Source: Roseburia sp.
Lineage (GTDB): Bacteria; Bacillota; Clostridia; Lachnospirales; Lachnospiraceae
Assembly: GCA_017626625.1 (NCBI GenBank)
Contig: JAGAIK010000415.1
Location: forward strand, 1-12,987
DNA length: 12,987 nucleotides
Direction: 5' to 3'
This document shows, one piece after another, positions 2,711 to 10,481 of this stretch; position 1 is the stretch's first letter, and each line of letters opens with the position of its first letter. The notes below the pieces were generated by a model. The model did not search any database and was not told the DNA's origin. It worked only from the letters and a program-made list of their open reading frames with translations. The position numbers and the translations under genes were made by a program.

Positions 2711-4186
2711 ATGGAACAGAAGAAGAACGGGGAGCAGATTTCCGAGACTGTACGTAATAATAAGATGGCAAAATTCGCCCACTGGCTGGATGTGATTGTG
2801 GTGATTGCGCTGATTTCGCTGGAAACCATCAGCCAGAAAAGGAGTGTAACCACGTTTCTCATTGCGGCGGTGATAGGTTTGCTGTTTCCGGTAATCGAGG
2901 AAATTTTCTGGCGCAGGGACAAAGAGACGCCTGCCATAAAACATCTGGTAGCTGTGGGGTATGCTTTGTTTTATACCTATATACTGTTTACCACGTCCAA
3001 TCAGTTTGTGTATGTTTTTGTTATCCCCATGATACTTCTGGTGTCTATTTTTAATGATGCAAAATATACGCTTATCATCAATGTGGGTGTGGTGCTGGAG
3101 AGTATTGTTTATGTCGCTATCGGTGCAACCACCGGAGCGCTGGGATATTTAGGAACGGATTATGGACTGCTGCAGATATCCACCATGATTATGGTTGGGG
3201 TTTACTCTTATTTTACGGCAAGAACCTTAAATCAGAATGCGGAGCAGAAAATTATCCGGGTCAGTGAAGCGCAGAGTGAGACGGAGAAGATATTGCAGGA
3301 TATTTCCGACCTTTCTGCGGAACTGAAAAGCGGCATTGAGGATATTAACGGGGAGCTTGCGAAACTCAGCACGGCATCGAAAACCACCGGAAACGCCATG
3401 CAGCAGGTTTCCACGGGGACAACGGATACAGCGGAGGCAGTGCAGAACCAGCTTCAGCAGACGGCTGCAATTCAGGAAAAGGTGGAGCTTGCGGGTACTG
3501 CGGCAGCCCATATTACCGAGAATATGCAGCAGACCTTTGAAGTGCTTGACAGCGGAAAACGGGATGTGGAGTTTCTGGTGCGGACGGTGGAGACTTCCGT
3601 ACAAAACGGCGTGGAGGTAGCAGAAAAACTCCGGACGCTGGATGCCTATATTGAGCAGATGAATACCATTGTGGAGCTAATCAACGATATTGCCTCTCAG
3701 ACAGGGCTTTTAGCGTTAAATGCCAGTATTGAAGCCGCCAGGGCAGGAGAGGCGGGAAGAGGCTTTTCCGTTGTGGCGACGGAGATTTCCGGCATGGCAA
3801 GCAGAACCAATGAAGCTACCTCCGACATCGCACAGCTCATTGGGAATGTTTCCGGCGCTATTCGCGAGGTGGTAAGCGTGGTACAGCATATGATTGACGG
3901 CATCAATGAAGAGAAACAGTCCACAGAGAATACGGCGGCAAGCTTTGACAGCATTCAGGAAAATACATATTCCATCCGTGACAATATTGACAGTCTGGCG
4001 GAACATATCGGGGAGCTTAAAGCTGCCAACAATGAAATTATGGATACGATACAGACCATTTCCGCCATATCCCAGGAGGTTTCCGCCCATGCCGGAGAGA
4101 CGTTAGCCGCTCAGGAGGACAATGGGAATATTTTAAGGGAAATTGCGGAGAAAATGCAGAGACTGGTGGAGCTCACCGGGGACTGA
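2711..4186 (+). CDS. Methyl-accepting chemotaxis protein with multi-pass membrane N terminus
   Basis: A 491-residue chemoreceptor-type signal transducer that would couple to CheW and CheA. Residues 22-170 hold about six hydrophobic segments (near 25-41, 46-63, 77-95, 98-113, 118-142, 152-170) joined by very short loops. There is no extracytoplasmic Cache or four-helix sensor domain and no clear HAMP domain. From about 185 to the end it is a coiled-coil MCP signalling domain. The hairpin tip (about 327-359) reads IASQTGLLALNASIEAARAG, then EAGRGFSVVATEI, close to the universal tip, with QTG in place of the common QTN. The ribosome binding site GGTGAGGAG is 6 bases from the ATG. It probably senses a membrane-state signal or a ligand in the membrane, which is inference. 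No other chemotaxis or flagellar gene is in the window. Confidence 0.95.
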   Translation: MEQKKNGEQISETVRNNKMAKFAHWLDVIVVIALISLETISQKRSVTTFLIAAVIGLLFPVIEEIFWRRDKETPAIKHLVAVGYALFYTYILFTTSNQFVYVFVIPMILLVSIFNDAKYTLIINVGVVLESIVYVAIGATTGALGYLGTDYGLLQISTMIMVGVYSYFTARTLNQNAEQKIIRVSEAQSETEKILQDISDLSAELKSGIEDINGELAKLSTASKTTGNAMQQVSTGTTDTAEAVQNQLQQTAAIQEKVELAGTAAAHITENMQQTFEVLDSGKRDVEFLVRTVETSVQNGVEVAEKLRTLDAYIEQMNTIVELINDIASQTGLLALNASIEAARAGEAGRGFSVVATEISGMASRTNEATSDIAQLIGNVSGAIREVVSVVQHMIDGINEEKQSTENTAASFDSIQENTYSIRDNIDSLAEHIGELKAANNEIMDTIQTISAISQEVSAHAGETLAAQEDNGNILREIAEKMQRLVELTGD

Positions 4187-4417: not shown

Positions 4418-6136
4418 ATGGAACGGAAAAAGAAGATTCGCTGTTTGGCAGTGGGTGCGGCAGTAATTATTTTGGCGGCGGGCGGTGGTCTTGCCTATCA
4501 GAGAATCGGGGGCAGAGTGGGAACAGAGGAAGCTTCTGCTCCGGAAAATATAGAAGCGCAGCAGGAAACGGAGGGCGGATTTTCGGAGGAAGGCACCACC
4601 CAGATGGGAGTGTTAAGCCAACTGCCGGAATTTTCTGTCGGGGTGGTAACCATGACGGTGGAGGAAGTCTATGAAGAGGCGGGGGACACGGTCAGTGCCG
4701 GGGATGCCCTGATGAAGCTGACGGAAGAGAGCATGGAGAATGCCAGAACTTATTATGAAAAAGCCGTGGCGGAGGCGGAGCGTACCCTTGCGTCGGCAGA
4801 GGCAGAATTAGCGTCGGGGGATTTAGAGGCGAAATCCGGTTTACAGGAGACAAAGCTGGATGCGGAACATGCGGCGGACAGCTATCAGGCGGCGGTGGAC
4901 GAAATTGATGTGAAGGTGGCAGAGAAAAAAGAGGCGTACGATACGGCGGTGGAGACCATTCAGGAATACCAGTCGGAGCTTGACAACGGAATCTATTATA
5001 CCGAAAACGGGCTTAGCGAGAAAAAAGATGTGGTTACCCAGGCGGAAACGGATTTAGGGACGGCGCAGTCGAATTTGTCAGACGCTAAAACCGCAGCGGA
5101 GATGGCAGCTCTTGCAGTGGGCAGCAGAATGACGGAGCTGCAGACCAAAATCAGTGAAAATGCGGATTACGAGACGCTGCAGAGTTTAACAGAGGAGCTT
5201 ATTTCCGAGTATGAAACACAGCAGAAAGCGGAGACGGCGCTGACGGAGGCGCAGACGGGCGCAGATACGGCACAGAGCAAATTAGAACAGGCGCAGCAGG
5301 CGTTTGACAATGCGGTGGAAGCCTATAACAAAGACACGGAGGAGGCGAATCAGAAGATTGCGGAGCTGACGGAACAGTTAGATAATCTTTTGTCGGAATA
5401 TGAATCAGCACAGCGGAGTGCGGAAACGGAAAAATTAGAACTGAAAAACCAGTATGACACGGCTGTCTTAGAGGGAGATTATGCGGACAGCACCTACCAG
5501 TCGGCGGTAAGCAGCTTAGAGACGGCAGTGGAAACAGCACAGGAAAATTTAGATACGCTACGGCAAGAACAGGAGAAGCTGCTGGCGTTAGAGGACGGCG
5601 TGATAAAAGCGGAGCAGGACGGAACGTTAGCCTACATAGCCTATGAGGCAGGAGATACCTTAGTCAGCGGTGCGGCGTTGGCGGCTTACAGCGATACCGC
5701 CGCCATTACCATTTCCGTGGAGGTGCCGGAGGATAAGATTTCCCAGGTGGAAGTAGGGCAGGAGGTGTCTGTCCGTATTTCCGGCAGCAGAAACAGTGTG
5801 ACGGGGACCGTATCCGCCGTGGCTTCTTCGGCTACTGTGGGGGGAAGTATTTCCAATGTGACTTACGCAGTAACCATTTCCATTGACAATACCGACGGGC
5901 AATTTGGTGCGGGCAGTTCTGCGGTGGTAACTTTTGCAGAGAGAAAAAAAGAAACGACGGAAGAAATTGAGGCAATAGAAGAAACCGAGCAAGAAACAGA
6001 GAAAGAAGCAGTAGAAGAAATCGAAGAAGGGACAGAGAAAGAGACAGTGGAAGAAATCGAGCAAGAAACAGAGAAAGAAGCAATAGAAGAAATCGAGAAA
6101 GAGACAGAGAAAGAAACAACGGAAAAGGAGAGTTAG
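4418..6136 (+). CDS. HlyD/MacA-type membrane fusion (adaptor) protein 1 with acidic repeat tail
   Basis: A 572-residue adaptor subunit of a MacB-like ABC exporter. Residues 1-28 are basic then hydrophobic, forming an N-terminal anchor. The first half of a lipoyl/barrel-sandwich domain is at about 72-104 (MTVEEVYEEAGDTVSAGDAL). A very long coiled-coil hairpin follows (about 105-390, Ala/Glu/Gln-rich). The second lipoyl half (GTLAYIAYEAGDTLVSGAAL) and a beta-barrel domain end near 507. In Gram-positive cells such adaptors are thought to extend into the wall. After residue 507 comes a Lys/Glu-rich tail with four 12-residue repeats (520-567), not usual for the family. The ribosome binding site AGGAAAGGG precedes the ATG. 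The next gene's Shine-Dalgarno (AAGGAG, 6125-6130) lies in its last codons. It is paralogous to the next gene: both share a VYxxxGxxVxxGDAxxKLTEES motif. Confidence 0.88.
   Translation: MERKKKIRCLAVGAAVIILAAGGGLAYQRIGGRVGTEEASAPENIEAQQETEGGFSEEGTTQMGVLSQLPEFSVGVVTMTVEEVYEEAGDTVSAGDALMKLTEESMENARTYYEKAVAEAERTLASAEAELASGDLEAKSGLQETKLDAEHAADSYQAAVDEIDVKVAEKKEAYDTAVETIQEYQSELDNGIYYTENGLSEKKDVVTQAETDLGTAQSNLSDAKTAAEMAALAVGSRMTELQTKISENADYETLQSLTEELISEYETQQKAETALTEAQTGADTAQSKLEQAQQAFDNAVEAYNKDTEEANQKIAELTEQLDNLLSEYESAQRSAETEKLELKNQYDTAVLEGDYADSTYQSAVSSLETAVETAQENLDTLRQEQEKLLALEDGVIKAEQDGTLAYIAYEAGDTLVSGAALAAYSDTAAITISVEVPEDKISQVEVGQEVSVRISGSRNSVTGTVSAVASSATVGGSISNVTYAVTISIDNTDGQFGAGSSAVVTFAERKKETTEEIEAIEETEQETEKEAVEEIEEGTEKETVEEIEQETEKEAIEEIEKETEKETTEKES
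5975..6118 (+). repeat. Four tandem 36-bp repeats encoding a 12-residue acidic motif
   Basis: Copies lie at 5975-6010, 6011-6046, 6047-6082 and 6083-6118 and encode IEETEQETEKEA, VEEIEEGTEKET, VEEIEQETEKEA and IEEIEKETEKET. They are in frame at the C terminus of adaptor 1. The near-identical purine-rich units are prone to slippage or recombination, so copy number may vary between strains. Confidence 0.92.
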
Positions 6137-6137
6137 C

Positions 6138-7577
6138 ATGAAAAAGTCGAAAAAATATCTTGCGGCGGGGCTGGGGGCAGCGGCGGTCTTAGCGGCAGGA
6201 GGCAGCATTTACGCTTATCAGTCTGCGGGGGAAAAGGAGACGGAAACGGTCTCTAAGGAGACGGTGGTGGAGAGAGGCAATCTTACCGTGGGCGTGACGG
6301 AAAGCGGCAGTATCGCCATCGGCAGCTTAAGCCAGGAAATGGAGTTTGAGGGAAGTTCTTCTAGCAGCGGACAATCCGGGGCGCAGTCAGCGGGAAATGC
6401 AGCAGACAGCAGCGCTTCCTCGGAGAGCCTTGAGGTGGAAAAGGTTTATGTTTCGGTGGGGCAGAAGGTAAAGATGGGGGACGCCATTTTAAAGTTGACG
6501 GAGGAAAGCGTGGAAAGCTGCCGCAAGGAGCTTGAAACAGCGGTGACAGAGGCAAAGGCAGAGGTGAGTGCGGCGAATTTATCTGCGGCAAAAACAAAGC
6601 TTTCCGCAAGCTATTCCTATAACGTCAGCATAGCAAAAGGCAGCGTGGCGGAGGAAGAGTATCAGGCGGCTTTAGCGGAATTAGAGGATGCGGTGGAGGA
6701 AGCCCAGGAGGCGTTTGACGAGTCGGCTGCCCTGGTGACTTATTACCAGCAGATGATAGAATCCGGTGTGGATTTGAGTGAGTCCTTAGCGGAAGAGCAG
6801 AAAAATTATGACAGCCTCTACAATAAACTGAAATCGGCACAGAGCGCCTATACCACATAATCGGCGGAGGCGGAGAAAACCTATCAGGAGGCGCTGTTTT
6901 CCAGCCAGAACGCCAGCAGCCAGTACTCCGCAGATGTAAACGGCGTGGAGGTTACTGCGGAAGAGGCGGCTGCGGCATTGGAGGAAGCGGAGGAAAACTT
7001 AGCGGAGTTTGAGGCATTTGTGGGGGACGGAACGGTATATTCCGCCTATGACGGAACGGTGATGGAAATCGGCTATGCGGCGGGGGATGAGCTGTCCTCT
7101 TCCACCGCAGTGGTGACCTTTGCGGATGCAGCCTCTGTTTCCATGACCGTGTCAGTTTCGGAGGAGGATATTGCAGGGATTGCATTGGGAGACGAGGTAA
7201 TGGTGGAGCTGACTGCCTATGAGGGCGAGACATTTCCTGCAGTGGTAAAGAGCACTGATACCTCCGTTTCCAGCGGTTCTTCCACGGTGTCCTATGATGT
7301 GGAGGTGCTTCTCACCGGAGATACGGACGGTATTTTTACCGATATGACGGGCAGTGTTACCTTTGTGGAAAAACAGGTGGAAGATGTGCTTTACGTGTCG
7401 AATAAGGCGGTGATTTCGGAAGGAACCAAGTCCTATGTCAAGGTGAAAAACAGTGACGGCACAACGGAGAAAAGAGAGGTTGCCACCGGATTTTCAGACG
7501 GTGTCAATGTGGAAATTCAGTCAGGACTTGAGGAGGGCGAGACGGTGCTGATAGAAAGCCAGGTGAAAACATCATGA
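6138..7577 (+). pseudogene. HlyD/MacA-type adaptor protein 2, interrupted by an in-frame TAA
   Basis: One reading frame of 480 codons runs from the ATG at 6138 (AAGGAG 7 bases upstream) to the TGA at 7575-7577, broken only by TAA at codon 241. Residues 1-240 give the N-terminal anchor (about 7-28), a Ser/Gly/Ala-rich insertion (about 72-97), the first lipoyl half (VEKVYVSVGQKVKMGDAILK) and the first coiled-coil arm. After the stop, the frame gives the second arm, the second lipoyl half (GTVMEIGYAAGDELSSSTAV), the beta-barrel and a membrane-proximal domain (LYVSNKAVISEGTKSYVKV, then GLEEGETVL). Both halves are needed for the fold, so the 240-residue product should not work as an adaptor. No ribosome binding site precedes the GTG at 6945 or the ATG at 7062, so restart is unlikely. 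The end overlaps the permease start (ATGA). Confidence 0.85.
6858..6860 (+). other. Premature in-frame TAA in adaptor 2
   Basis: The frame reads YTT, stop, then SAEAEKTYQEAL, with coiled-coil character continuing on both sides and no frame change. One base change from CAA, GAA or AAA (Gln, Glu or Lys, common coiled-coil residues) would explain it. TAA ends several other genes here, so reassignment of the codon is not supported. Confidence 0.9.
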
Positions 7578-9019
7578 AACCAGGGGAATTATTGCGGCTT
7601 GTCTGGATGAATATTATCCAGAATAAATTTAAAACCATTATGACCTCCATCGGAATCATTGTGGGGGCAGCCACGATTGTCATGGTGATTGCCATTGGAA
7701 AAGGCGGAAAAGAGGACGTGGCGGACCAGTTTAAAAACTTAAATGCCGGAGCCATTGATATTTCCTATGACGGCGGAACCGACGAAAGAAATATGGAAAG
7801 CGGCGGGGAAAGTACCGGCGGCGGAGGAATGGCAATGCCCCAGGGGGCGTCAGGCGGTTTTTCAGGAAATGCAGGAAATGCCGGGACAGGGGGCGGCTTT
7901 GGCGGCGGTGCACCCTCCTTCGGAGGTGATTTCGGCGGAGGCGGGGGAGATTTTTCTCCCGGCGAAATGCCCTCCGGAGGTGATTTCGGCAGAGGCGGCT
8001 TCTTCGGAGGCGGAAATGACATGCAGGAGCGGATGAATCAGGAAAACATCACCTTAGATGAGGAGGATGTGGACGATATCGAAACCTTTGCTGCCGGAGT
8101 TACGGATGTTACCATTTCTTATACCACCCGTTCTTCCGTGGACGGCGGTGAGTTAGAGGAAGCGGCAACCTATACCATCGGCGGCGTAAAGGAAAATTAT
8201 GCGGATATGAGCAACCTGTCCCTTGCCCTGGGGGAGTTTATCACAGAGGCGGATGATGAGAATAAGGAAAAAATCTGCGTGCTGGGGGCATCGGTGGCGG
8301 AGGAAATCTTTGGCAGCGCCATCGAAGCCTATGGCAGCGTGATTTACATTGACGAGCGTTCCTATGTGGTAAACGGCGTGTTGGAAACGATGGGTACGGT
8401 GTCCTCCGGAATCAGCCCCGATGATTCCATTTTCATTCCCTATGCCACCGGGGTGAAATATCTGGTGGGAACGAAGGTGAATCCCACCATCACCGTGTTG
8501 GCGGAGGACGTCAATAACATTGACGGCGTCATTGCGGAGGTGACGGAGGTGTTGGCGGCAACCTATCCCAACGCGGAATTTACCTTTGAGGATGCAGGCA
8601 GCAAGATGGAGGCAGCGGCGGCTTCCAACGAAATCCTTACCATGCTTCTAATTGCCATGGCGGCGATTGTGTTCGTGGTAGGCGGCATCGGAATTATGAA
8701 TGTCCTGTTTGTCTCCGTGAAGGAGCGCACCAATGAAATTGGTATCCTAAAGGCAATCGGCTGCTCCCAGAAAAATATTCTGTTTGAATTTTTGTGTGAG
8801 GCGGCGGCAATCAGCCTCATTGGCGGTGTGCTTGGGGTGGGAGCAAGTTTACTTGTGACCCCGGTGGCGCGGTATTTTGGGGTGCGGGTGGAATTGTCGC
8901 TGTCGGCGTTTTTGATTGCACTGCTCTTTGCAGTGGGAACGGGGACGATTTTCGGATTTTATCCTGCTTATAAGGCGTCAAAATTAGTCCCGGTAGAGGC
9001 ATTAGGCGCAGAAACTTAA
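7574..9019 (+). CDS. MacB/FtsX-type ABC transporter permease with Gly-rich extracellular insertion
   Basis: A 481-residue permease of the MacB type. The first membrane helix is at about 22-42, in TIMTSIGIIVGAATIVMVIA. A large extracytoplasmic domain (MacB periplasmic core type, about 43-350) follows. Three C-terminal helices are near 353-382, 407-432 and 444-463, with the FtsX signature GGIGIMNVLFVSVKERTNEI, then GILKAIG, and the FGFYPAYKASKLVPVEAL ending. Unlike fused MacB, the ATPase is a separate gene at 9801. The odd part is residues 77-148, a Gly/Phe/Met/Pro/Ser low-complexity insertion (GGGFGGGAPSFGGDF, EMPSGGDFGRGGFFGG) placed early in the extracellular domain. AGGTGA is 7 bases before the ATG, which overlaps the stop of the broken adaptor gene. 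Translation may be reduced if coupling to that gene is lost. Confidence 0.92.
   Translation: MKPGELLRLVWMNIIQNKFKTIMTSIGIIVGAATIVMVIAIGKGGKEDVADQFKNLNAGAIDISYDGGTDERNMESGGESTGGGGMAMPQGASGGFSGNAGNAGTGGGFGGGAPSFGGDFGGGGGDFSPGEMPSGGDFGRGGFFGGGNDMQERMNQENITLDEEDVDDIETFAAGVTDVTISYTTRSSVDGGELEEAATYTIGGVKENYADMSNLSLALGEFITEADDENKEKICVLGASVAEEIFGSAIEAYGSVIYIDERSYVVNGVLETMGTVSSGISPDDSIFIPYATGVKYLVGTKVNPTITVLAEDVNNIDGVIAEVTEVLAATYPNAEFTFEDAGSKMEAAAASNEILTMLLIAMAAIVFVVGGIGIMNVLFVSVKERTNEIGILKAIGCSQKNILFEFLCEAAAISLIGGVLGVGASLLVTPVARYFGVRVELSLSAFLIALLFAVGTGTIFGFYPAYKASKLVPVEALGAET
7917..7998 (+). repeat. 28-bp direct repeat within the Gly-rich insertion
   Basis: Copies at 7917-7944 and 7971-7998, 54 bases apart, differ at only two positions and both encode GGDFG-type residues. 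They look like a recent internal duplication of an 18-codon unit that enlarged the permease loop. Confidence 0.8.
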
Positions 9020-9041
9020 GGAAGAAGGGCTGAAGTGGAAA

Positions 9042-9779
9042 ATGAAGAAAAAAGGATTGATTTTGACAGCGGCGGGGATTTGCCTGGCAGCGGCAGCGGT
9101 TACGGTTTCCCTTTTGGCGGGTCGGGAAACCGGGAGTGCGGAGACGGTAAGTGTGGGAGAAAACCAGCGGATTGTTTACGGATATCTGACCTCCGTCCTG
9201 GGAAATGAAATCAGCTACACGGAGATAGAAACGTCGGTGGCGGAAGCCATGCTGGAGAAGCAGGCGGAAAAAAGTGACGAAAAGACAACCTCTGACGGGA
9301 AAGAAGCAGCGTCAGGCACAGGAGATGGAAGTATGCCGGAGGGAGCTCCGCAGGATGGGGGAAATGGCACTTCGGGAGAACAGCCGCCTGATATGGAAAC
9401 CGGAGATTTGGCAGGCAAAGCCCCGCAGGGTATGGAAAACGGTACTTTGGGAGAACAGCCCTACGATACGGAAGGCGGAGATTCGGCAGAAAAAACCTCT
9501 CAGAGTATAGAAAGCGGCACTTCGGGAGAACAGCTCTCCGATACGGAAACCGGAAATACAGCGGACGGAGAGCAAAGCAGACCGGAAACGGGAATGCAGT
9601 CCGGCATAGGAAGCGGAGAGAGCGTTACAGCACTGATTCCAGTGGGGACGGTGGTGCACACGACAACAGATACGGAGACAACATTTTCAAGGCTGGCAGC
9701 AGGGGATTTCGTGAAGTTCCTTCTGGAGACAACAGAGGACGGCGGGGAAACCATAGTGGAAATCTGGATGATACAGTAG
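9042..9779 (+). CDS. Membrane-anchored repeat protein of the export operon, function unknown
   Basis: A 245-residue protein with an N-terminal hydrophobic anchor or signal (about 4-26, GLILTAAGICLAAAAVTVSL). There is no lipobox: the only Cys, at 14, lies inside the hydrophobic core. Residues 40-75 (RIVYGYLTSVLGNEISYTEIE) and 195-245 (VTALIPVGTVVHTTT, then LAAGDFVKFLLE, ending VEIWMI) read like two parts of one small beta-rich domain, resembling the GxVTxVxGNxIT and LxxGDxVxI patterns of DUF5666-like proteins. The parts are separated by about 120 Gly/Ser/Glu/Pro-rich residues that include three 25-residue repeats. It sits between permease and ATPase, so it probably serves the exporter, for example as an extracellular accessory. 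This is inference. No family can be named with certainty. Confidence 0.75.
   Translation: MKKKGLILTAAGICLAAAAVTVSLLAGRETGSAETVSVGENQRIVYGYLTSVLGNEISYTEIETSVAEAMLEKQAEKSDEKTTSDGKEAASGTGDGSMPEGAPQDGGNGTSGEQPPDMETGDLAGKAPQGMENGTLGEQPYDTEGGDSAEKTSQSIESGTSGEQLSDTETGNTADGEQSRPETGMQSGIGSGESVTALIPVGTVVHTTTDTETTFSRLAAGDFVKFLLETTEDGGETIVEIWMIQ
9366..9590 (+). repeat. Three 75-bp repeats in the anchored protein gene
   Basis: Copies begin at 9366, 9441 and 9516, each opening with a GTxGEQ motif followed by aspartate and glutamate-rich sequence (GTSGEQPPD, GTLGEQPYD, GTSGEQLSD). The period is exactly 75 bases (25 residues). The third copy is more diverged in its second half. They are in frame and would change linker length without breaking the protein. 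Confidence 0.85.
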
Positions 9780-9800
9780 CATTGCGGAAAGGGAGAAAAA

Positions 9801-10481
9801 ATGAATATCATTACCATGCAAAACATCAATAAATCCTACCGGATGGGAAATCACAGCCTGCATGTATTAAAGAATGTGTCCCTTACGGTGGAAAAGGGGG
9901 AATACCTTGCCATATTAGGTCCCTCCGGTTCGGGAAAAAGTACGTTAATGAACATTATCGGCTGTATGGACGTGATGGACGAGGGCACATACTGCTTAGA
10001 CGAGGTTGCAGTGGAACATGCGAAGGAGAAGGAGCTTGTGAATATCCGCAACCGGAAAATCGGCTTCATTTTCCAGAAATACCATCTGATACCCACCTAC
10101 AATGTGCTTCAGAATATTGTCATGCCCCTTTTGATGCGGGGAATGAGCTTAAACGAGGCAAGAGAAGCGAGTATGGAAACCATAGAAATGTTAGGGCTCG
10201 CGGAGCGAATAAACCATAAGCCCAACGAGCTGTCTGGCGGACAGCAGCAGCGTGTCGCCATCGCCAGGGCGCTGGTGGGGCAGCCTGCCATTTTACTTGC
10301 GGACGAACCGACGGGGGCGTTAGACAGAAACAGCGGAAAAGAAGTGTTAAAGCTTTTCGGACGTCTGCATGATATGGGAAATACTATTGTGATGATTACC
10401 CACGATTTGGACGTGGCGGAACATGCCAAACGGGTGGTACGGATTGTGGACGGGGAATTGTTTGAGGGGAAAGAAGCGTGA
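9801..10481 (+). CDS. ABC transporter ATP-binding protein, MacB/LolD type
   Basis: A complete 226-residue ATPase that should power the permease encoded at 7574. All motifs are intact: Walker A GPSGSGKST (40-48), Q-loop Gln92 (FIFQKYHLIP), signature LSGGQQQRVAIARAL (144-158), Walker B ILLADEPTGALD (164-175) and the switch His201 (ITHD). IFQxxxLIPxxNVLxNIxMP is characteristic of the MacB/LolD/FtsE-like export branch. AAAGGGAG is 5 bases before the ATG, and the gap to the previous gene is 21 bases. It ends the operon. No clear hairpin terminator follows in the 63 bases before the next promoter. Confidence 0.96.
   Translation: MNIITMQNINKSYRMGNHSLHVLKNVSLTVEKGEYLAILGPSGSGKSTLMNIIGCMDVMDEGTYCLDEVAVEHAKEKELVNIRNRKIGFIFQKYHLIPTYNVLQNIVMPLLMRGMSLNEAREASMETIEMLGLAERINHKPNELSGGQQQRVAIARALVGQPAILLADEPTGALDRNSGKEVLKLFGRLHDMGNTIVMITHDLDVAEHAKRVVRIVDGELFEGKEA

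Follow-up and report, generated by a model that had tools for sequence, protein, structure and literature searches.

Do the low-complexity expansions in the extracytoplasmic proteins of one bacterial exporter share a purpose? The question is raised by a MacB-type ATP-binding cassette (ABC) exporter operon of Lachnospiraceae and relatives, located at positions 4418..10481 of a 12,987-nucleotide stretch of Roseburia sp. DNA (GCA_017626625.1, contig JAGAIK010000415.1), the whole of which is termed the window and whose source genome is fragmented (723 contigs, 81% complete). On the + strand the operon has genes for adaptor 1, adaptor 2, a permease, an anchored protein and an ATPase, in that order. 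These five positions were correctly recognised in an original prediction made from the letters of the window, the products including a MacB_PCD/FtsX permease, a LolD-like ATPase and HlyD-type adaptors, and adaptor-coupled export is the putative activity read from these genes. The same prediction held that every extracytoplasmic protein is expanded and that the expansions may act together; its observation is partly confirmed and its interpretation partly supported. The firmest result of the analysis is an oriented Met-Pro motif which the loops of several subunits share.

Adaptors of these operons fall into permease-proximal (A1), middle (A2) and distal (A3) groups, and the motif was counted in 194 loops from four subunits (permease, middle adaptor, distal adaptor and anchored protein), loops shorter than 15 residues being left out. 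Met-Pro occurs 353 times and Pro-Met six times, with 56.6 expected, and the bias is found in the permease loops (184 Met-Pro, 4 Pro-Met), the middle tails (52, 1), the distal tails (19, 0) and the anchored linkers (98, 1). Counted by loop, Met-Pro is present in 123 of the 194 and Pro-Met in 4; none of these counts is to be read as a p-value, because related operons are not independent. Shuffling residues within each of the 81 permease loops gave 28 Met-Pro pairs compared with the 184 observed, and the longer pattern Met-Pro-x-[Gly/Met/Phe] stands approximately 8 to 19 times above such shuffles in permease, middle, distal and anchored loops alike. Adaptors, permeases and anchored proteins (164,224 aa in all) contain this pattern 305 times and the other open reading frames (ORFs) of the loci (242,971 aa) 42 times; among neighbouring ORFs of 150 aa or more, Met-Pro and Pro-Met number 247 and 196. 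Other residues are also placed mainly before Pro, namely Ile (28 before, 1 after), Leu (25, 3), Val (27, 7), Phe (49, 13), Arg (68, 4) and Ala (81, 37), and those mostly after it are Ser (Ser-Pro 24, Pro-Ser 202), Gly (Gly-Pro 50, Pro-Gly 235) and likewise Asp and Glu. The motif unit is therefore a hydrophobic residue (mostly Met) or Arg, followed by Pro, by Ser, Gly, Asp or Glu, and by Gly, Met or Phe, with Gly/Ser spacing between units.

As the middle and distal adaptors are paralogues, the four motif-bearing subunits represent three unrelated families. The distal "tails" of three loci (L099, L111, L002) hold a folded domain and were kept in the length, motif, Met-content and likeness analyses; without them, the distal tails still have 19 Met-Pro and no Pro-Met. 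The motifs quoted in the original prediction (MPQGA, MPSGG, MPEGAPQ and APQGM) are all present, and the recurrence that they hinted at is real and far stronger than could then be shown. A motif common to several unrelated proteins suggests that the loops share a job, such as holding moving parts together. The principal alternative is neutral or near-neutral drift, according to which exposed loops and termini tolerate expansion by slippage, turn-forming, soluble and protease-resistant sequence is kept, and there is no joint function. Such drift accounts poorly for an oriented motif that recurs in three unrelated families far more often than in shuffles of the same composition.

Several other origins of the motif were considered and rejected. 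The Gly codon preceding ATG-CCN is GGA in 75 cases and GGC in 13, though GGC is the commonest Gly codon across the loops, and on this count a DNA palindrome (GGCATGCC) behind Gly-Met-Pro was discarded. As for recent copying of DNA within an operon, blastn gave four matches, confined to the three operons L024, L046 and L049; between different genes of different operons it gave 52. Genome-wide spread was likewise rejected, a Gly-Met-Pro-x-Gly-Gly coding pattern giving 14 matches in six genomes and its reversed control 11, although this is a weak control because none of the pattern's matches falls in the permease stretch of the operon. The proposal that the permease carries more of the motif when the anchored gene is missing was not upheld (means 3.4 vs 2.0, p = 0.37). 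An operon-specific dialect was also rejected: of eight pairs, the 3-mers of permease and middle tail differ from near relatives (p = 0.028) and those of no other pair do, and permease and anchored protein, again in 3-mers, are the sole pair differing from all operons (p = 0.039).

A genome collection at species level was searched with the permease, and the best 80 of the 457 loci found supplied part of the loci compared. In the same genus a match at E 1e-40 was present in 10 of 62 genomes, that of the window counted, one of the ten (G044) having a distant paralogue of 33% identity without the loop; of 397 genomes sampled from the same family, 24 match at E 1e-60. A total of 110 loci were annotated, the window included, of which 102 with distinct permeases remained after removal of eight duplicates, and loops were measured in 97 operons, five loci being dropped for a short or chimeric permease. 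A short proximal adaptor (L115), adaptors of less than 380 aa and adaptors cut by contig ends were dropped from the adaptor measurements, and two anchored proteins, cut or masked, were excluded. Profile matches and gene order in relatives place a MacB/LolD-type ATPase and a HlyD-type adaptor in one operon with the permease. By automatic count, 55 of the 102 loci have an adaptor directly upstream of the permease with anchored protein and ATPase downstream, and 33 have adaptor and ATPase with no anchored gene recognised, some of these holding the gene in a missed frame. The 580-aa permease ORF of Butyrivibrio sp. XPD2002 (L063) is an in-frame chimera, distal-adaptor-like in its N-terminal part and permease-like from approximately residue 230, and looks as if the intervening stretch was deleted.

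The permease (7574..9019, + strand, 481 aa) matches MacB_PCD (87.4 bits, cut-off 27) and FtsX (68.8 bits, cut-off 25.5). Its structure model, with a mean predicted local distance difference test (pLDDT) of 79.7, has a helix at 18-53, mixed alpha/beta structure to residue 340 and long helices at 341-384, 399-434 and 443-469, a predicted topology that fits an extracytoplasmic domain between the first transmembrane helix and three C-terminal ones. The Gly/Met/Phe/Pro-rich loop (residues 66-157, 7769..8044, + strand) follows strand 60-65 of the porter domain, precedes its helix 163-172 and is predicted to be disordered, pLDDT being below 50 at residues 69-91, 95-98, 100-129 and 131-155. A Gly-rich insertion had been predicted here with a length of 72 residues; the insertion is present, and by alignment it measures 92. 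It was found in all 81 members of one permease clade (support 0.999), with a range of 27-182 residues, and 15 of 16 outgroup permeases have 10-14 residues at this site, the other (L064) having 32; the 81/16 split was chosen after inspection of the loops and later found to be a clade. By inspection, the loop is not present in two paralogous MacB-like permeases of the window's genome (L082, L083). This absence, together with the fact that a loop of at least 27 aa has never been lost in the 81 operons, also argues against neutral drift, which accounts poorly for so universal a feature.

Met makes up 8.1% of the permease loop and Phe 5.9%, Leu, Ile, Val, Trp and Tyr together 3.0%, and Cys and His 0.0%. 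The loop could thus be envisaged as a hydrophobic brush of Met and Phe, its chief hydrophobic residues, which captures cargo at the substrate entry of the porter domain and passes an amphipathic peptide or lipid from permease to adaptor. In PMC8277102, Y315 and F320 of E. coli MacB are listed in a plausible erythromycin site, and in our alignment both fall at the start of the permease loop; lateral substrate uptake, outside the membrane, is proposed for Gram-positive MacAB-like pumps in PMC5768738. The presence of the permease loop without adaptor loops in single-adaptor operons would also suit cargo capture. However, no biosynthetic family was common to the scanned flanking genes (58 upstream, 53 downstream) and the motif is also present in adaptor tails and the anchored linker, and cargo capture as the main role of the loops is considered unlikely. 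The Met content could also suggest a redox switch in which host or microbial oxidants oxidise loop methionines and loosen the assembly, a precedent for which is reported in the Met-rich domain of yeast Pbp1 (PMC8394241). As Met is replaceable by other residues in the motif, such a switch seems very unlikely.

Adaptor 1 (4418..6136, + strand) is a HlyD/membrane-fusion protein with matches to HlyD_3, HlyD_D23 and RND_mfp (TIGR01730), the last from profile position 65 and no further than position 251 of 322, and it seems to be without a membrane-proximal domain. In a tree of 166 adaptors it belongs to the distal clade (46 sequences, support 0.993); the middle clade has 35 sequences (support 1.0) and the proximal set 60. 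Its Lys/Glu-rich tail of 66 aa (5936..6133, + strand), with 36-bp tandem repeats at 5972-6119, was correctly described in the original prediction. The unusually long first adaptor ORF of L130/L029 (992 aa), of distal type, has long Gly/Ser/Glu-rich repeats inside its coiled-coil hairpin. In the middle clade, an acidic stretch (median 19 aa, 65% Asp+Glu, 35 members) in the lipoyl region occupies, as judged by sequence pattern, the place of the proximal Ser/Gly loop.

Adaptor 2 is of the proximal type and, with a TAA in frame at 6858..6860 (+ strand), is divided into two ORFs in the window's genome, a feature missed in the original prediction. The 5′ part (6138..6860, + strand, 240 aa, ending at the TAA) scores 274.9 bits to the A1 clade, 98.9 to A2 and 65.3 to A3, and holds the predicted Ser/Gly/Ala-rich insertion as a loop of 27 aa (residues 71-97, 6348..6428, + strand) before the lipoyl motif VEKVYVSVGQKVKMGD. 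The downstream part (6945..7577, + strand, first start GTG at 6945) also has A1 as best match, with 99.1 bits to TIGR01730 (cut-off 94.9) and 35.3 of the 342 bits set as cut-off for the NCBIfam MacA equivalog PRK11578. Both pieces are too short for the adaptor tree and were placed by best match to the proximal set. Full-length orthologues in relatives (L096-L101) have 476-513 aa, and the TAA may be a true mutation or an artefact of assembly or population. Among the 102 loci, 39 have one adaptor ORF, 25 two, 31 three, two four and five none, some counts being lowered by contig ends and others, the window's among them, inflated by split ORFs.

The anchored protein (9042..9779, + strand), for which no Pfam or NCBIfam family was found at E 0.001, has an N-terminal membrane helix and a small barrel (GNEI ... 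IPVG ... TTFSRLAAGD), as seen in the model of a linker-free orthologue (L011). Between barrel strands 2 and 3 lies the low-complexity linker (residues 58-198, 9213..9635, + strand), containing 2.8 copies of a 75-bp (25-residue) repeat at 9344-9554; its presence and repeats are as predicted, and its length is 141 aa instead of approximately 120. Scored by script and eye among the 81 clade operons, the gene is present in 63 (57 measured) and absent in 16, one operon (L102) has a remnant and one (L043) could not be determined. The L102 remnant, a C-terminal piece before the ATPase, suggests gene loss. As 12 outgroup anchored linkers have seven Met-Pro and no Pro-Met, this linker may be the older carrier of the motif.

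From its model, the barrel is predicted to be an OB fold structurally near CusF and IF5A, and by sequence it is not CusF. CusF has a conserved His/Met metal site in its barrel, and the Met-rich loops and CusF-like barrel could together be imagined as a soft-metal (Cu+/Ag+) relay handing metal to the exporter in the manner of CusF-CusB-CusA. Against such a relay, unrelated OB folds tie in Z with the CusF-type match in the structural search, and the sole match to CusF_Ec (PF11604) in the genome lies outside the operon at 13.1 bits, under the cut-off of 27. Profile comparison of the anchored protein with CusF by hhalign, using an approximate CusF query sequence, gave a probability of 3.4%, and DUF5666 (PF18914) was not matched anywhere in the genome at E values of 1 or less. 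The barrel core has neither His nor Met among consensus residues at ≥50% (His 0.4% and Cys 0.2% overall), and His and Cys are nearly absent from the loops. Metal relay is disfavoured because the residues found in place of Met at the same motif position, Ile, Leu, Val, Phe, Ala or Arg, are not metal ligands, and it is the least probable of the explanations considered.

For co-occurrence, loops were scored with thresholds of 25 residues for the permease, 20 for the proximal adaptor, 20 for the distal adaptor and 45 for the anchored protein. The proximal-adaptor Ser/Gly-rich loop was found in all 59 measured Lachnospiraceae-type (A1-clade) operons, with a minimum of 24 aa, always together with the permease loop, and to this extent the co-occurrence looked for was observed; it does not extend to tails and linkers. 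Of 28 operons with all four parts measured, nine carry all four loops, 12 have no distal tail, six no long linker and one neither. Distal tail and anchored linker are not positively associated (odds ratio 0.125, Fisher p = 0.084) and come and go independently of each other, so that expansion does not as a rule affect "every extracytoplasmic protein". For covariation in length, 15 pairs were assessed by independent contrasts on a permease-plus-ATPase tree. Permease and proximal-adaptor loop lengths covary (r = 0.49, p = 0.0004 to 0.0006, n = 59), and this persists when all branches are set to one length (r = 0.41, p = 0.002) and when GC is included as a covariate (r = 0.48); no covariation of the permease loop was seen with the anchored linker (r = 0.06) or the distal tail (r = 0.07). 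In Met content, the permease loop is correlated with the adaptor tails (r = 0.57-0.60).

The reading that we tentatively place first, well short of conviction, is that elastin-like loops hold permease and adaptors together flexibly and perhaps also screen cargo. Extracytoplasmic parts of the exporter would have gained disordered, elastin-like loops which, being multivalent, weakly self-cohesive and extensible, could maintain a flexible link between the porter domain and the adaptors, as chains of stickers and spacers are able to stretch and to bind one another weakly. The porter domain, on which the permease loop is located, is thought to have its movement transmitted in MacB-type pumps, and ATP-driven movements might open and close this domain as the loops hold contact. 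Where the neighbouring adaptor has a loop, that loop varies in length with the one in the permease. The loops may also help to screen hydrophobic cargo at the adjoining entry site, and adaptor tails and the anchored linker would be optional extra contacts. That the loops act together outside the membrane in this manner is inferred from their sequences. A broader version, considered unlikely, would have the outer face of the exporter held by an elastin-like Met-Pro loop network on up to four subunits (the permease, the adaptors of middle and distal type and the anchored protein with its predicted OB fold), to which the proximal adaptor would add a Ser/Gly loop, giving a cohesive, elastic coupling that supplements or replaces rigid docking of adaptor to permease.

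A number of observations weigh against flexible cohesion. Proximal-adaptor loops are not rich in the motif (six Met-Pro, four Pro-Met), and loops within one operon are mostly no more alike than loops of near relatives. Nine single-adaptor operons of Oscillospiraceae type, in the same permease clade, lack the adaptor loop and, by inspection, keep the permease loop, which therefore does not need it; of the two loops that of the permease is the more widespread, the other being confined to the multi-adaptor group. After phylogenetic correction 14 of the 15 length pairs are not significant, and for this reason, together with the nine single-adaptor operons, the view that all insertions co-occur and covary was rejected. 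Even the permease and proximal-adaptor pair has the same sign in just 34 of 58 contrasts, falls to r = 0.23 (p = 0.09, log) or 0.36 (p = 0.007, raw) once the eight largest contrasts are dropped, and has an uncorrected rank correlation of 0.16 (p = 0.23). The coupling of Met content is mostly gone once three contrasts are dropped, and the anchored gene is missing from 16 of the 81 operons, in which the ATPase follows closely. Neutral drift gains from several of these points, being in keeping with the adaptor loop missing in the nine single-adaptor operons, with tandem DNA repeats in two operon genes (adaptor 1 and anchored protein), with lengths that differ greatly between close relatives (distal tails among genus members range from 8 to 68 aa, the 68 including a folded domain), and with an anchored linker and distal tail that are uncorrelated with the permease loop and often missing. 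It accounts well for the variable tails and linkers, and is nearly as likely as cohesive coupling.

The ATPase (9801..10481, + strand) is of MacB/LolD type, matching ABC_tran and scoring 231.9 bits to LolD, under that model's cut-off of 307.75. Its 226 aa are without a low-complexity region, as had been predicted, and ATPase ORFs in 90 loci have 220-298 aa (interquartile range 223-237). The cut-off of 966 bits for the NCBIfam MacB equivalog PRK10535, a model of 648 positions that spans ATPase and permease together, was not reached by the permease (166.7) or the ATPase (236.1). Elsewhere in the window there is an AraC-type regulator (538-1743, - strand), whose nearest NCBIfam model, a YSIRK-adjacent regulator, is below cut-off, and a methyl-accepting chemotaxis-type protein upstream of the operon (2711-4186, + strand). 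Upstream neighbours differ among relatives. Of the flanking genes collected, 73 upstream and 76 downstream, the scan covered 58 and 53, and a shared flanking gene was rejected, with response regulators in 13 of 58 and histidine kinases in 8 of 58 upstream genes and no downstream family common to more than four of 53.

Like MacAB and the Gram-positive MacAB-like exporters (Spr0693-0695, YknWXYZ), the operon combines a MacB_PCD/FtsX permease, a separate LolD/MacB-type ATPase and a HlyD-type adaptor, and like YknWXYZ it has an extra fourth component. It is unlike them in that 58 of 102 loci have at least two adaptor ORFs, that many encode an anchored protein with a predicted OB fold, and that permease and adaptors bear disordered loops, although the loops of the cited structures were not directly compared. 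In PMC8277102, the site between strand 1 and helix 1 is an insertion hotspot of porter domains, used in S. pneumoniae FtsX and NPC1; the insertions there are described as beta-hairpins, whereas the permease loop is long, predicted to be disordered and rich in Gly, Met, Phe and Pro. More than one adaptor gene per pump is also reported for TriABC-OpmH, and the apparent lack of a membrane-proximal domain in adaptor 1 resembles the condition of EmrA described in PMC13328181. Those are Gram-negative RND and MFS pumps; the present system is an ABC exporter whose adaptors form as many as three paralogous groups. Unlike CusF, the silver chaperone 8bxj and the SilB C-terminal domain, the anchored protein has no sequence-profile match, no conserved His or Met in its barrel, and a linker between strands 2 and 3.

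The VPGXG repeat of elastin-like polypeptides is a turn motif. The exporter loops resemble these polypeptides in their oriented hydrophobic-Pro-x-Gly units and Gly-rich chain, predicted to be disordered, and differ in having Met rather than Val before Pro, in being embedded in the loops of membrane machinery and in an elasticity that is putative. Regular VPGXG pentads were not found in the loops, Met being dominant before Pro and the Met/Phe spacing irregular. No paper on such loops in MacB-type exporters was found in the open-access literature searched, which is not proof that none exists. To our knowledge, disordered low-complexity regions have been well studied inside eukaryotic cells and little in bacterial membrane machines. 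The oriented motif in three unrelated families of one exporter, present in common gut anaerobes, makes it possible to study in a concrete case whether the moving parts of a pump are coupled through disordered loops, and the analysis reveals multi-adaptor ABC exporters as a family whose partner protein, with a predicted OB fold, is uncharacterised. What is new here in comparison with the systems above is that paralogous adaptors, a partner of predicted OB fold and a class of loop common to several subunits occur together.

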